Shown in pieces: positions 21,838-28,141 of a stretch of DNA of 64,000 nucleotides. The position numbers and the translations under genes were made by a program. How positions within the stretch are numbered: position 1 is the stretch's first letter; the number at the start of each line of letters is the position of its first letter. The stretch comes from Solitalea canadensis DSM 3403 (GTDB taxonomy: Bacteria; Bacteroidota; Bacteroidia; Sphingobacteriales; Sphingobacteriaceae): contig NC_017770.1 in NCBI RefSeq assembly GCF_000242635.2, positions 3,360,669-3,424,668 on the forward strand, in the 5' to 3' direction. Under the pieces are notes generated by a model. That model saw nothing but the letters and a program-made list of their open reading frames with translations. It did not search any database and had not been told where the DNA came from.

Positions 21838-21988
21838 AAAAGTACGACACTTATGATGAAGAAACTTCTATCATATTAACAACCACTTGGATTGCTTCAA
21901 CAGTTGAATGGGTTATCCTTCAATTATAATTACAACCATCCTTTTCCTTACTGACTTCCCTCCTCTTTAACTTTTTTTACATTTCTAT

Positions 21989-22042
21989 TTTGATTTTCAA
22001 AATCTTTATTATATTTGCCTATATAATCTATAGACTAAGTAT
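21989..22042 (+). promoter_or_regulatory. promoter and 23-nt operator-like element of the cysteine-leader operon
   Basis: TTTG at 21989-21992 and TATATTTG at 22010-22017 fit -33 and -7 elements. Immediately after, at 22020-22042, lies an AT-rich element starting TATATAATCTATAGACTAAG. A near copy (20 of 23 positions) is at 26652-26674 upstream of the amino-acid permease. The position over the start point suggests a repressor site. Confidence 0.55.
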
Positions 22043-22068
22043 TGTTTATGAATTAAATCTATATAATC

Positions 22069-22161
22069 ATGTACAACATCAGCATCCTAAAAACCCAAAC
22101 ATCTAAACGCTACCTCTTTTGCACTACACTAACTTGTATGCAACGCTGCTGTTGCATGTAA
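22069..22161 (+). CDS. cysteine-rich leader peptide (30 residues, ends MQRCCCM)
   Basis: An ATG 27 nt after the operator-like element opens a 30-codon frame, MYNISILKTQTSKRYLFCTT then LTCMQRCCCM, stopping at TAA 22159-22161. Five of 30 residues are Cys, three of them consecutive. Polycysteine leader frames are known in mycobacteria as cysteine-responsive attenuators; the same logic is inferred here. The 158 nt that follow can form hairpins, including GACTT-T-AAGTC and AACTATT with AATAGTT, before the solute-binding protein start at 22320. Confidence 0.65.
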   Translation: MYNISILKTQTSKRYLFCTTLTCMQRCCCM

Positions 22162-22319
22162 TTTTTCCACCCCACTTTAGGACTTAACAGTACGCCCTGG
22201 TTTCTAATCATTTTTGACTTTAAGTCTTAAACTATTGTGGCATGCCGGAAAACAGATCTTAACTAATAGTTGCACCTACAAACAGCGACATTAACAGAAA
22301 ACTTAAACAACTTCTGACA

Positions 22320-22748
22320 ATGAAAAAGTTTAAACACTTCATCGCCATATTGGCATTGGCAGGCCTTTGGCAAACTACTGCTGCTCAAACACCATTTTCA
22401 GAAAATCAGATTGTAATCACCGGAACACGGTTCACCTATCCATTGGTTGAAAAATGGATATGGGAGTTCAAGCAAGAACATCCCGAAATTGCTATCAAAA
22501 TAGTTTCAAAAGGAACGAAAGCAGCTGATAGTGCCAACTTTTTTATCAATGCCCATACGTTATCGGTTGATGAAAAGAAAAACAGAGAGTCGGTAGCTAT
22601 TGCTCGTTACGCACTTCTTCCAGTGGCTAACAGTAAACACAAAGGGCAATCCTATAGTCATCAGTTTGGGTTTGCTGTACTAAATGAAAAGGATCTGATC
22701 AGTAATTCCGATACAAATCACCAGAAATCTATTGCTAAACAGGAATAG
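22320..22748 (+). CDS. PstS-like solute-binding protein, apparently C-terminally truncated
   Basis: A 142-residue exported protein: signal peptide MKKFKHFIAILALAGLWQTTAAQ, then ENQIVITGTRFTYPLVEKWI and FKQEHPEIAIKIVSKGT. This is the first lobe of a phosphate/sulfate-type periplasmic binding protein. ESVAIARYALLPVANS corresponds to the hinge region. Relatives run to about 270-300 residues; this one stops after GFAVLNEKDLISNSDTNHQ, so the second lobe is lacking. It follows the Cys-rich leader and precedes a SUMF1-fold gene by 112 nt. A role in oxyanion or sulfur scavenging is inferred. Confidence 0.65.
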   Translation: MKKFKHFIAILALAGLWQTTAAQTPFSENQIVITGTRFTYPLVEKWIWEFKQEHPEIAIKIVSKGTKAADSANFFINAHTLSVDEKKNRESVAIARYALLPVANSKHKGQSYSHQFGFAVLNEKDLISNSDTNHQKSIAKQE

Positions 22749-22860: not shown

Positions 22861-23619
22861 ATGATATCAGCACTAACCGAAATTGCATTTACCGAGCCTG
22901 GAGAATTTAACTCCGTTTATAATCAGATGATCACTGTACCAGGAGGAAAAATGATCAGGCAAAGTGATGATGGGAGAACCCGTGTGATTTCACTTAATAC
23001 CTTTCTGATGGATAGGCTTTTGGTAACAGTTAAGGAATTTGATGATTTTGCAAAAACAACAGGATATATCACTGATGCTCAGCGATCAGGAAACGCTGCA
23101 GTTTTTGATGCTGAGAACAATGGTTGGCAGATGACCGATGGCGCAACTTATTTTTATCCTAAAGGCTTAGATAAAGAAAAAGCGCCATTAAGTCATCCTG
23201 CAACGCAGGTATCATGGCTGGATGCGCAGGCTTATGCTGCTTGGATTGGAAAACAGTTGCCTACCGAAAATGAGTGGGAATGGGCAGCACAAAACGCATC
23301 AAATATTTGCCTGCAATACCGATATAATGAAGAGCCAATACCCGACAGTTTAAAAAAACAGTACGTGGAGCTTTTGCCAGCCGGTTCTTTCGGTAAAAAT
23401 CAGCTTGGCTTCTATGATATGGATGGCACGGTTCGTCAGTGGACCACTACTTCCCTTTTTGTTAAAGACCAACAAGAACTAATTACAAAAGGAGGATTAT
23501 TTACAGATGATATGCATAACGTCTATCATTACAAACGATTCAATAGTGTTTCAGCTGTAGCTGATCAGGGTTATTCACACATTGGTTTCCGGTGCGTACT
23601 AAAATATAAAAGTCTTTAA
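22861..23619 (+). CDS. SUMF1-fold (formylglycine-generating-enzyme-like) protein, non-canonical
   Basis: A 252-residue protein with the FGE-sulfatase/SUMF1 layout: MITVPGGKMIRQSDDGR, FLMDRLLVTVKEFDDFAKTTGY, HPATQVSWLDAQAYAAWIGKQLPTENEWEWAAQ, GFYDMDGTVRQWTT and the final GYSHIGFRC. The C-terminal copper-binding cysteine pair that makes true FGE active is not present; the region reads DDMHNVYHYKRFNSVSAVADQG. It therefore probably does not make formylglycine. There is no signal peptide. It is related to the nirV-like protein at 50944-51702. It lies in the cysteine-leader operon between the solute-binding protein and a fatty-acid hydroxylase. Confidence 0.8.
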   Translation: MISALTEIAFTEPGEFNSVYNQMITVPGGKMIRQSDDGRTRVISLNTFLMDRLLVTVKEFDDFAKTTGYITDAQRSGNAAVFDAENNGWQMTDGATYFYPKGLDKEKAPLSHPATQVSWLDAQAYAAWIGKQLPTENEWEWAAQNASNICLQYRYNEEPIPDSLKKQYVELLPAGSFGKNQLGFYDMDGTVRQWTTTSLFVKDQQELITKGGLFTDDMHNVYHYKRFNSVSAVADQGYSHIGFRCVLKYKSL

Positions 23620-23704: not shown

Positions 23705-24922
23705 ATGGAATCAATAGCGCTTGCACTACCTGTCTTACTGCTAGCAATTGGCATCGAATATTATGTTGCCAGAAGAAAAAAGGTGGATGTTTACAAATTC
23801 AAGGATACAATCAGCAACTTGAGTATAGGTATTCTCGACCGGGTGGCTGGTATGTTTACTGCGGGATTCTTTTTCTTTGTCTATGATTACCTGCATAAAC
23901 AATTTGCTCTATTTACAATTGAGCCGAATTGGATTACCTGGATCCTGTTATTTTTCTTTGTCGACTTTCTGTGGTATTGGTATCACAGGAGCAGTCATGA
24001 GATTAATATTTTCTGGGCCGTGCATGTTATCCATCATTCGAGCGAGGAGTTTAACTATTCGGTTGGAACAAGGATTACCATTTTTCAATCGCTTGCACGT
24101 TTGCTTTTTTGGGCTTTCTTGCCCATTATTGGTTTCCCTGCATTAATGATCATGCCTGTTTTATTGATACAAGGAGTTTATCCGTTCTTTGTACATACCC
24201 GGCTAATTGGCAAATTAGGCTGGATCGAAAAGGTATTGGTAACTCCGTCACATCACAGGGTGCATCATGCTAACAATGAAGAGTACCTGGATAAGAACTA
24301 TGGTGGTGTGTTTATTTTCTGGGATAAATTATTCGGCACATTTAAAGAAGAAACAAATGAAGTCCATTATGGCTTAACCCATCAATTACATACCCATAGT
24401 TTGTTATGGCAGTTTTTTCATTTTTTCCTTGAGCTTTACTATTCGGTTAAGCTAACCCCGGGATTCAGGAATAAACTAGGGGTCCTATTTGGAGGGCCCG
24501 AACAGATAGATCCTGCCATTCGCGAAGAACTGGAAGAAATCTTTCTATCACGATCAAGACGCAAGCCGGTTCCTGCTCCCTTTAAAAGATATGTAATTAT
24601 ACAGCTTGCAGCCATTATTGTGGTGTTGATAGGCATGCTATATTTCTATGATAAGTTAGATTGGATCGGAATGAGTGGCACTTCATTGATCATTTTAATT
24701 ACCCTTATCAACTGCGGCGCGATACTGGAACAAAAGCGATGGGTATTTAACCTGGAGTTTACCCGATTTGTATTAGCGACTTCAATGATCGCCTTGTTTA
24801 CAAAGCAACCGCTTATCTGGTTAGTGGTAATAACTGCGCTTGAAACAGTGTTGGTCAATTACAGTTCTCTCAGAAATATCTATATGAAAAACCTGATACC
24901 AACAAAAAAAATTATCAAATAA
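23705..24922 (+). CDS. sterol desaturase/fatty-acid hydroxylase family membrane protein
   Basis: A 405-residue integral membrane di-iron enzyme. The histidine boxes are WYWYHRSSHE, VIHHSSEEFN and SHHRVHHANNEEYLDKNYGG, the standard FA_hydroxylase set. N-terminal helices lie at about residues 3-20, 45-70 and 75-95. A C-terminal extension of about 120 residues adds four more helices (IQLAAIIVVLIGMLYFY..., TSLIILITLI..., VLATSMIALF). A shorter paralogue, without the extension, is at 44392-45285. It follows the SUMF1-fold gene by 85 nt; an intergenic GC-rich word (23634-23672) lies between, so co-transcription is uncertain. The lipid substrate is unknown. Confidence 0.88.
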   Translation: MESIALALPVLLLAIGIEYYVARRKKVDVYKFKDTISNLSIGILDRVAGMFTAGFFFFVYDYLHKQFALFTIEPNWITWILLFFFVDFLWYWYHRSSHEINIFWAVHVIHHSSEEFNYSVGTRITIFQSLARLLFWAFLPIIGFPALMIMPVLLIQGVYPFFVHTRLIGKLGWIEKVLVTPSHHRVHHANNEEYLDKNYGGVFIFWDKLFGTFKEETNEVHYGLTHQLHTHSLLWQFFHFFLELYYSVKLTPGFRNKLGVLFGGPEQIDPAIREELEEIFLSRSRRKPVPAPFKRYVIIQLAAIIVVLIGMLYFYDKLDWIGMSGTSLIILITLINCGAILEQKRWVFNLEFTRFVLATSMIALFTKQPLIWLVVITALETVLVNYSSLRNIYMKNLIPTKKIIK

Positions 24923-26685: not shown

Positions 26686-28141
26686 ATGTATAAAAAACCT
26701 TTAGCCTGGCTGCTACAAGAAGCCGGAGAAAGTGATGCTCATTCTTTAAAACGCACTTTAGGCGGGTTCAACCTGATTCTAATTGGTATCGGGATTATCA
26801 TCGGTGCAGGATTGTTTTCGCTCACCGGAATTGCAGCTGCCAATCATTCCGGACCAGCAGTTACGATCTCGTTTGCCATTGCTGCCGTTGGGTGTGCATT
26901 TGCGGCTCTTTGCTATGCTGAATTTGCTTCAATGATTCCTGTTGCCGGTAGTGCCTATACTTACTCGTATGCTACCATGGGTGAGTTTCTGGCCTGGATT
27001 ATTGGATGGGATCTGGTATTGGAATATTCCGTTGGCGCTGCTACAGTTTCAATCAGCTGGTCGCAGTACCTGGTCAAGTTTTTGGCTTCTTACGATATCC
27101 ACCTTCCTCCTCAACTAGTCTACTCTCCTTTTGAATCAGTAACAATGGCTACCGGTGAAGTGGTTCATGGTATTATCAATCTGCCTGCTGCTTTAATTGT
27201 TGTCCTTATCTCTATCGTTTTGATTCGAGGAACCAAAGGTTCTGCCATAATGAACGCCATTGTGGTTGCCTTAAAAGTGGGTGTAGTATTGGTATTTATT
27301 GCTTTGGGATGGCATTACATTCAACCAACAGAATTATGTACCCTATATTCCCAATAATACAGGTACGTTTGGTGAATTTGGCTGGTCGGGGATTATCCGC
27401 GGGGCCGGTATTGTTTTCTTTGTTTTTATTGGGTTTGATGCCGTTTCAACAGCGGCTCAGGAAGCGAAAAATCCTAAACGTAATATGCCTATCGGGATCT
27501 TAGGCTCATTGATTGTTTGTACCATTTTATTTATGCTTTTTTCGCATGTGATGACCGGAATGGCCAATTACACTGAATTTAAAGGCAGTGCAGCTCCTGT
27601 TGCTATCGCCATAGAAAAAACACCGTACAAGTGGTTAAGTCAGGCTATTATTTTAGCCATTTTGATCGGATACACTTCGGTAATCCTGGTTGACTTATTG
27701 GCACAATCACGCGTATTCTTCTCCATGAGCAGGGATGGATTATTGCCAAAAGTATTCTCTGAGGTACATACCAAATTCAGAACCCCATGGAAATCAAATA
27801 TCTTATTTGCAGCTTTTGTTAGTCTTTTCGCTGCATTTGTACCGATTAGGGTTGTTGGTGAGATGACGAGTATAGGAACCTTATTGGCATTTGTAATTGT
27901 GTGCGCAGGGGTATTAATCATGCGTAAAACAATGCCAGATGCACCAAGAAATTTCAAAACACCGCTTGTTCCATTAGTGCCAATTTTGGGTATTTTAACC
28001 TGTGTAGGTATGATGGTTTTTCTCCCACTAGACACCTGGATTCGTTTATTTGTCTGGATGGCATTGGGAATAATTATCTATTTCTTTTACAGTAGGAAAA
28101 ATAGTATCGTGAGAAAACATTATGAAAATGAGAAGGGGTAA
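26686..28141 (+). pseudogene. APC-superfamily cationic amino-acid permease, frameshifted
   Basis: Two overlapping frames make one YfnA/CAT-like permease. The first (26686-27357) has LKRTLGGFNLILIGIGIIIGAGLFSLTGIAA and the first six helices and ends HYIQPTELCTLYSQ. The second resumes as NYVPYIPNNTGTFGEFGWSG and runs six more helices to 28141 (GIVFFVFIGFDAVSTAAQEAKNPKRNMPIG is the conserved helix 7-8 region). Removing one base, G27331, would fuse them into a protein of about 484 residues. Everything else looks intact, so this is a recent mutation or a base error. Substrate unknown; the promoter element shared with the cysteine-leader operon hints at sulfur amino acids. Confidence 0.8.

Follow-up and report, generated by a model that had tools for sequence, protein, structure and literature searches.

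The window analysed here, a stretch of 64,000 nucleotides from Solitalea canadensis DSM 3403, contains a short open reading frame that is followed, 158 nt after its stop codon, by genes for a PstS-like binding protein, a SUMF1-domain protein and a fatty-acid-hydroxylase family protein (Table 1). The frame is translated as MYNISILKTQTSKRYLFCTTLTCMQRCCCM-stop, with five Cys in 30 codons (positions 18, 23, 27, 28, and 29). A preliminary description of this DNA had pointed to the MQRCCCM-stop end of the frame, to a TAnnTTTG promoter upstream of it, and to about 158 nt between leader and next gene, and all three were found in place, the frame also being conserved in two relatives. TAnnTTTG, which we take to be the Bacteroidota promoter consensus, sets the expected transcription start (promoter assigned by consensus only) ~46 nt 5' of the leader ATG. 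A mini-frame, ATG AAT TAA, occurs at positions 22048-22056, 12 nt 5' of the leader ATG, and a mini-frame of the form ATG-[AAT/ATT]-TAA is present upstream of the leader in all three Solitalea species. A search of Rfam with the window leader yielded two chance-level matches and no credible family, and at eight other loci nothing reached the gathering threshold.

Table 1. Features of the leader region and the genes behind it (positions in the window)
Feature	Position	Strand	Basis or remark
TTTTG, candidate -33 element	21988-21992	+	sequence
-7 promoter box TATATTTG (TAnnTTTG type)	22010-22017	+	sequence; box kept in S. agri and S. longa
Palindrome GCCTATATAATCTATAGAC (GTCTATA-N5-TATAGAC type), candidate operator	22017-22035	.	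overlaps expected transcription start
Leader peptide ORF, 30 codons	22069-22161	+	ORF list; conserved in two other Solitalea species
AACATCAGC (codons 3-5), 8/9 positions complementary to the Cys-codon stretch 22145-22153	22075-22083	+	
Local hairpin over MQRCCCM-stop	22134-22161	+	T5 after hairpin in window only
Cys27-Cys28-Cys29-Met30-stop, candidate regulatory Cys run at stop codon	22147-22161	+	DNA same in three Solitalea species
C-rich, G-poor stretch directly after stop, candidate Rho-loading (rut) site	22162-22178	+	C-rich in three species; function inferred
PstS-like binding-protein remnant, in-frame internal deletion, 142 aa (320 aa in S. agri)	22320-22748	+	
SUMF1/FGE-domain protein, without lipoprotein signal and without FGE Cys pair	22861-23619	+	
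Fatty-acid-hydroxylase family protein, full length, last gene of remnant operon	23705-24922	+	

In S. agri and S. longa, the leader is followed in order by genes for a PstS-like binding protein (320 and 319 aa, respectively), an FGE-type SUMF1 lipoprotein, SusC (1086 aa), SusD (498 aa in S. agri), a fatty-acid-hydroxylase family protein (405 aa), and a sulfatase (524 aa); S. agri, for which the protein families of the intact operon were scanned, has an additional second hydroxylase and second sulfatase. The SUMF1 protein of these relatives matched solved formylglycine-generating enzymes (FGE) with an E value of ~1e-55, and the C-terminal Cys pair of FGE, presumably the catalytic Cys residues, was aligned. 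By its predicted proteins, the intact Solitalea operon is a sulfate-ester scavenging locus. In the window, on the other hand, residues 1-108 and 106-141 of the PstS-like protein aligned to residues 1-106 and 283-319 of the S. agri protein, respectively, the middle having been lost in frame. No match to SusD at 1e-60 or to the sulfatase at 1e-120 was detected in the window's genome, in which the best SusC match (1.1e-160, 37%) is located away from the operon. This deletion, the losses in the SUMF1 protein, and the missing SusC/D and sulfatase genes indicate that the gene set in the window is a remnant of the sulfate-ester locus, and since the operon has decayed in this strain, its present function there is uncertain. 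The downstream operon of the preliminary description was therefore only partly borne out: binding-protein lobe, SUMF1 protein and hydroxylase are all present, but as a remnant in which the hydroxylase is the sole full-length gene. The hydroxylase is 78-79% identical to those of the relatives, and by the estimated substitution rates (pN 0.13-0.14 vs pS 0.77-0.79) it is under purifying selection.

Among the 11 matches of the binding-protein profile in 395 genomes of the phylum, nine regions and G016, besides the window, resembled by eye ordinary PstS in pst operons and were set aside. The Solitalea SusD query matched in the two relatives only among 101 genomes of the family, and the Solitalea SusC query gave 20 loci in 121 genomes, with neither a close operon in other genera nor a convincing leader upstream. 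In G002, the remaining Solitalea genome that was searched, nothing matched the operon's first gene. Outside the operon, an amino-acid-permease-like gene is split into two overlapping ORFs (223 and 280 aa) at 26686-28141 of the window, and a 480-aa homologue (by eye) lies in a single frame in S. longa; this species also has four tandem 150-bp repeats at ~2275-2871 of L003, each coding AFPSFSTTETRRCVCLFHHPTLYVSCCCKFFLAVGEGVEPSRSGYHSI.

The leader was located at L019:6039-6131 in S. agri and on the minus strand at L020:10242-10334 in S. longa, ahead of the same first gene, and its peptides are MTNISTLQNPNQQLLVFCIATTCMQRCCCM and MTNISHLNHTSLPLQIYCTAYTCMQRCCCM, respectively. All three Solitalea species having the operon have a leader of 30 codons, which differ in the middle but agree in the start, NIS, Cys18, and TCMQRCCCM-stop; the last 15 nt (TGC TGT TGC ATG TAA) are invariant. 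The leader was kept although, in the same comparison, the genes around it are almost saturated at their synonymous sites. The alignment with relatives that the preliminary description had proposed as a check therefore gave the frame and CCC run with a variable middle in both species, and the claim was not refuted by it. When 151 genomes of the family were scanned for the exact RCCCM-stop pattern, 11 matched; the three Solitalea matches are the leader element, and the other eight genomes were set aside, as judged from the listing alone. A scan of GTDB contigs with narrow peptide patterns recovered the leader in S. agri and S. longa only.

Since the DNA for MQRCCCM also forms a hairpin, conservation within Solitalea alone could reflect RNA structure. 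In the window only, a terminator-like hairpin with T5 covers the Cys codons themselves; S. agri and S. longa have a 10-bp form of the hairpin without a T-run, and folding of this region in S. agri gave a z of -3.46. Codons 3-5 of the Solitalea leader (AACAUCAGC) may form an alternative long-range helix with the Cys-codon stretch, competing with the local hairpin. In a structure comparison limited to the few (three) Solitalea sequences, this long-range helix (helix 1) was paired in 97% of cells, with 11/13 pairs invariant; the structure of the three sequences went beyond that of shuffles (0/500 for cells paired), and six pairs were changed on both sides. The classical arrangement of an attenuator with an intrinsic terminator was absent from the Solitalea leader: no terminator followed it in S. 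agri, and S. longa had a weak match (-7.5 kcal/mol) without a proper T-run. The 30 nt after the stop codon contain C9G3, C8G3, and C10G3 in the three Solitalea species (the S. longa slice being shifted by 3 nt), and the 3' part of the leader in the window has diverged from those of the relatives.

A search of 300 genomes of the order with the sulfatase gave three matches at 1e-120 and led to G004, a genome of another genus, in which the leader MSKRIRRFFKANKMDTLAQINRATYSKCCRCWCCCRM (ending ...SKCCRCWCCCRM) precedes a SusC operon with four sulfatases. The gene row consists of SusC, a gene in the SusD position, a sulfatase, a DUF1254 protein, a hydroxylase, and three more sulfatases. When the SusC of G004 was used as a query against 201 genomes of the family, 122 matched, and the best 30 loci were used. 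By the rule of an ATG frame located at most 450 nt upstream in which three or more of six residues are Cys, 18 of these best 30 loci have a Cys-run leader (dinucleotide shuffles: mean 0.45, maximum 2 in 100; antisense: 0), and 10 have one with at least four Cys, vs 0.03 in shuffles; at the other 12, the rule finds no leader. Fourteen of the 18 leaders, such as MMPNLFIFSMQVYPSCCC, MKIYMHFSLPHRMCCCC, and MKLYFTIPVSRLPKKQYCCCC, have Cys as their final codon. Reading of 20 of these SusC operons with a home-made HMM revealed sulfatases in 18; a leader is present in 15, of which 13 contain a sulfatase, and the five leader-less operons all contain sulfatases too. A lenient terminator match was also found in 6 of the 18 sulfatase-class leaders. 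The C excess after their stop codons relative to those before sulfite reductase (see below) was modest (p ~0.01-0.02), and the G004 leader shows little C-richness after the stop. As separate observations, the four sulfatases of G004 share a single gene row with a DUF1254/DUF1214 protein and the hydroxylase (L078:178-9766), and upstream of three homologous SusC genes in another family (f26), frames ending CFCC or CSCC lie at 338-352 nt and have no ATG start.

Cys-run leaders also precede a NirA/sulfite-reductase-like gene (sir), whose NCBIfam matches are below the curated cut-offs and whose neighbour resembles CobA by eye. The upstream regions come from a search of 60 genomes, of which 35 matched, and a search of 325, of which 76 matched, leaving out the rows of G779, G916, G759, G854, G912, G786, G844, G019, and the second G022 copy, and dropping L117 (5 nt of upstream DNA); since G047 was taken twice (L140 and L164, neither with a leader), the 92 sir upstreams represent 91 genomes. 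Leaders were detected in 23/92 (shuffles: mean 0.89, maximum 5 in 100; antisense: 2), and those with at least four Cys in 12 (shuffles: 0.03; antisense: 0). The other 69 have no Cys-run leader by the rule, and none was found before the sir genes of Solitalea (L111-L114). The leaders, in other genera and families, include runs such as CCCC and CCCCC. As a control, 121 other genes that have free DNA upstream were used: nine had a match with three Cys, three of these being the sulfatase leaders themselves, and 1/121 had four.

All 23 sir upstreams with a leader contain a hairpin with a T-run in the last 300 nt (the best one in L184 being 5' of the leader), and this lenient rule also matched in 31/69 upstreams without a Cys-run leader. 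Inspection of 31 of those 69 revealed a CC leader in eight. A second test covered 29 leaders, 22 of the 23 (L151 was left out) and seven with only CC: a terminator follows the leader stop in 29/29, at a distance of 13-59 nt (18-24 nt in 21), and the 3' part of the leader pairs with the terminator arm above shuffles (at most 15/300) in only 10/29. The sir leaders of other genera thus have the arrangement of an intrinsic-terminator attenuator. Tandem Cys-run leaders occur before sulfite reductase in L168 (MKAKKSNMKMMNNGMCCCCAFLWRG at 221 nt and MINQNKMMCCCCKSTERWKW at 78 nt), L173, and L182. In L145, L149, L152, and L154, the leaders have a terminator and only CC with nearby Asn (e.g., ..HNNLINCCMR..); perhaps these read Asn as well.

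The palindrome GTCTATA-N5-TATAGAC after the -7 box is exact in S. agri and S. longa and has one mismatch in the window. When up to two mismatches were allowed, its count did not exceed that of the reversed pattern, used as a control, in any of five genomes. Of 15 palindrome regions that were chosen from the matches and read, three, each with two mismatches, lie before sulfur genes (arylsulfatase in S. agri, arylsulfatase in S. longa, and sir in S. agri), and the other 12 have no sulfur gene or lie within coding DNA. The pattern TCTAY-N7-RTAGA was found exactly in 11/30 SusC upstreams (shuffles: 0.1) and 3/92 sir upstreams (shuffles: 0.1), and with at most one mismatch in 19/30 (shuffles: 1.7) and 21/92 (shuffles: 3.5), respectively; since the pattern was written after some of the counted sites had been seen, these counts are descriptive. 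By sequence, this candidate operator is common to the SusC/sulfatase and sir gene sets and links them. Close to the sir start codon (up to ~20 nt before it), TCTATAG[AG], or TCCATAGA in two cases, was also noted in L111-L127, the count being 16 of 17 loci, those holding upstream DNA.

With good confidence, we interpret the frame in the window as a leader peptide that serves a sulfate-ester scavenging operon as a cysteine-responsive attenuator; stalling at the Cys codons would let transcription continue. It has what is expected of a leader of amino-acid codons, namely a conserved short ORF with 5 Cys in 30 codons and CCC adjoining Met-stop, and in the relatives it precedes genes of supply (sulfatase(s), FGE, and SusC/D), of which the window holds a remnant only. 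The cysteine-sensing leader on a sulfur-scavenging operon that had been proposed from the window is thus supported by the comparison: by these genes, by the recurrence of such leaders before sulfatase and sir genes, and by the common palindrome.

Other readings of the frame were weighed. Such frames are not rare by chance, since the 64-kb window has 11 that start with ATG, are 6-60 codons long, and have three or more Cys within six residues, and the leader could be a chance ORF as well; this has a negligible probability, because the same frame, length, and C-terminus are kept in S. agri and S. longa, i.e. in 3/3 species with the operon, and because the leader recurs before sulfur genes. On the other hand, the conserved object might be the RNA hairpin, serving as a pause, a terminator or a protein-binding site, with the Cys codons incidental. 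The terminator-like MQRCCCM-stop DNA with T5 in the window, the folding score in S. agri, the long-range alternative helix conserved in Solitalea, and the invariant final 15 nt are all consistent with a hairpin; however, in other genera the leaders retain a Cys run at the stop without the Solitalea sequence, Cys18 is conserved although it lies outside the local hairpin, and the T-run is missing in S. agri and S. longa. We therefore rejected this reading, which we consider improbable.

Another reading is a nascent peptide that senses a metal or a thiol: during translation, copper or a different metal would bind to the Cys cluster, which would control Rho-dependent termination ahead of the gene for a TonB receptor. 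The model is CruR of Bordetella, a copper-sensing DUF2946 protein with CXXC and RAPP motifs; its Cys-containing uORF lies ahead of the gene for a TonB-dependent transporter and acts by Rho-dependent termination (PMC9426467). The Cys-rich ORFs described here similarly lie ahead of SusC operons, but as judged by eye, neither CXXC nor the C-terminal RAPP was present in the 30-aa Solitalea peptide, and the short leaders have no CXXC plus RAPP arrangement. Moreover, it is sulfatase and sulfite-reductase genes that follow the leaders, and runs such as CCCC and CCCCC suit codon counting better than one metal site; this reading was rejected as very improbable. A further possibility, compatible with the cysteine attenuator as the best explanation, is that the leader is a fossil in the window strain, an ancestral cysteine attenuator whose function was lost with the decay of the operon. 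The deleted binding protein, the altered SUMF1 protein, the lack of SusD and sulfatase matches at the above thresholds, the diverged 3' leader, and the T5 hairpin confined to the window point in this direction, whereas the leader frame, the palindrome, and the promoter box are retained and the hydroxylase is under purifying selection; we consider loss of function in this strain rather unlikely.

The sir leaders resemble classical attenuators of the trp/his type in combining a Cys run with an intrinsic-terminator-like hairpin 13-59 nt away; they differ in that antiterminator pairing was significant in only 10/29, and the Solitalea leader differs in having no conserved terminator. In E. coli, Rho-dependent attenuation by tnaC relies on a Rho site adjoining the stop codon of a short ORF, which is covered while a ribosome is held there, and stalling on TnaC senses tryptophan and not a shortage of charged tRNA. 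The logic proposed for the Solitalea leader is similar, in that a ribosome held at its end would hide a Rho site, but the stalling would be caused by a lack of charged tRNA. The mycobacterial polycysteine sORF attenuators (Canestrari et al. 2020) are described as cysteine-responsive, leaderless short ORFs before cysteine-biosynthesis genes (PMC9094748, PMC13236596). They share with the Bacteroidota ORF the short length, the Cys run near the stop, and the position before sulfur genes, while the latter lies ~46 nt after the expected transcription start, precedes an outer-membrane sulfatase operon, and has an extra palindrome. Candidate cys leaders of actinobacteria (Seliverstov et al. 2005) have Cys-codon runs near the stop and no conserved terminator, and their polyY stretches were proposed as Rho sites in a tna-like manner (PMC1262725). 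The Solitalea leader shares with these the Cys run, the lack of a conserved terminator, and a suggested Rho site; it differs in the phylum, in the target genes, and in a C-rich stretch that abuts the stop in three Solitalea species. No report of cysteine leader peptides in Bacteroidota was among the literature matches listed, which were openly licensed papers and are weak evidence of absence. Cysteine-codon leaders have been described for Actinobacteria, and those of Bacteroidota would be a variant of that principle.

Under the cysteine-attenuator reading, a shortage of charged tRNA-Cys would stall the ribosome at the CCC codons, shortly ahead of the stop, and the operon would be transcribed; with ample cysteine, the ribosome would complete the leader and depart, and transcription would end early. 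In Solitalea, this early termination may be Rho-dependent, a stalled ribosome hiding the C-rich stretch after the stop, while the sir leaders of other genera would follow the same principle with an intrinsic terminator instead. We infer the translation of the leader, the stalling, the direction of the response, and the Rho-dependence from the sequence comparison. For leaders of the CCC-stop type, a Rho site hidden by the stalled ribosome is favoured, with a little less than even confidence, because of the C-rich stretch after the stop and the lack of a conserved terminator; translational coupling or structure switching are alternatives.

These results suggest that Cys-rich mini-genes before sulfatase and sulfite-reductase operons are a little-noticed means of sensing cysteine shortage. 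A two-layer sulfur regulon in Bacteroidota appears fairly likely, consisting of a predicted regulator that binds TCTAY-N7-RTAGA and two designs of cysteine attenuator, one with a terminator at sulfite reductase, and the other with the Cys run at the stop, probably Rho-dependent, at SusC/D-sulfatase operons. The leader offers a simple cysteine-responsive part, and the palindrome suggests a missing regulator, for which it is a defined candidate site. If the interpretation is true, the Cys-run-at-stop design would make such sulfatase loci sulfur-acquisition systems, and not only loci for carbohydrate use, and this class of leader would be a testable criterion for which sulfatase loci of Bacteroidota serve sulfur supply.
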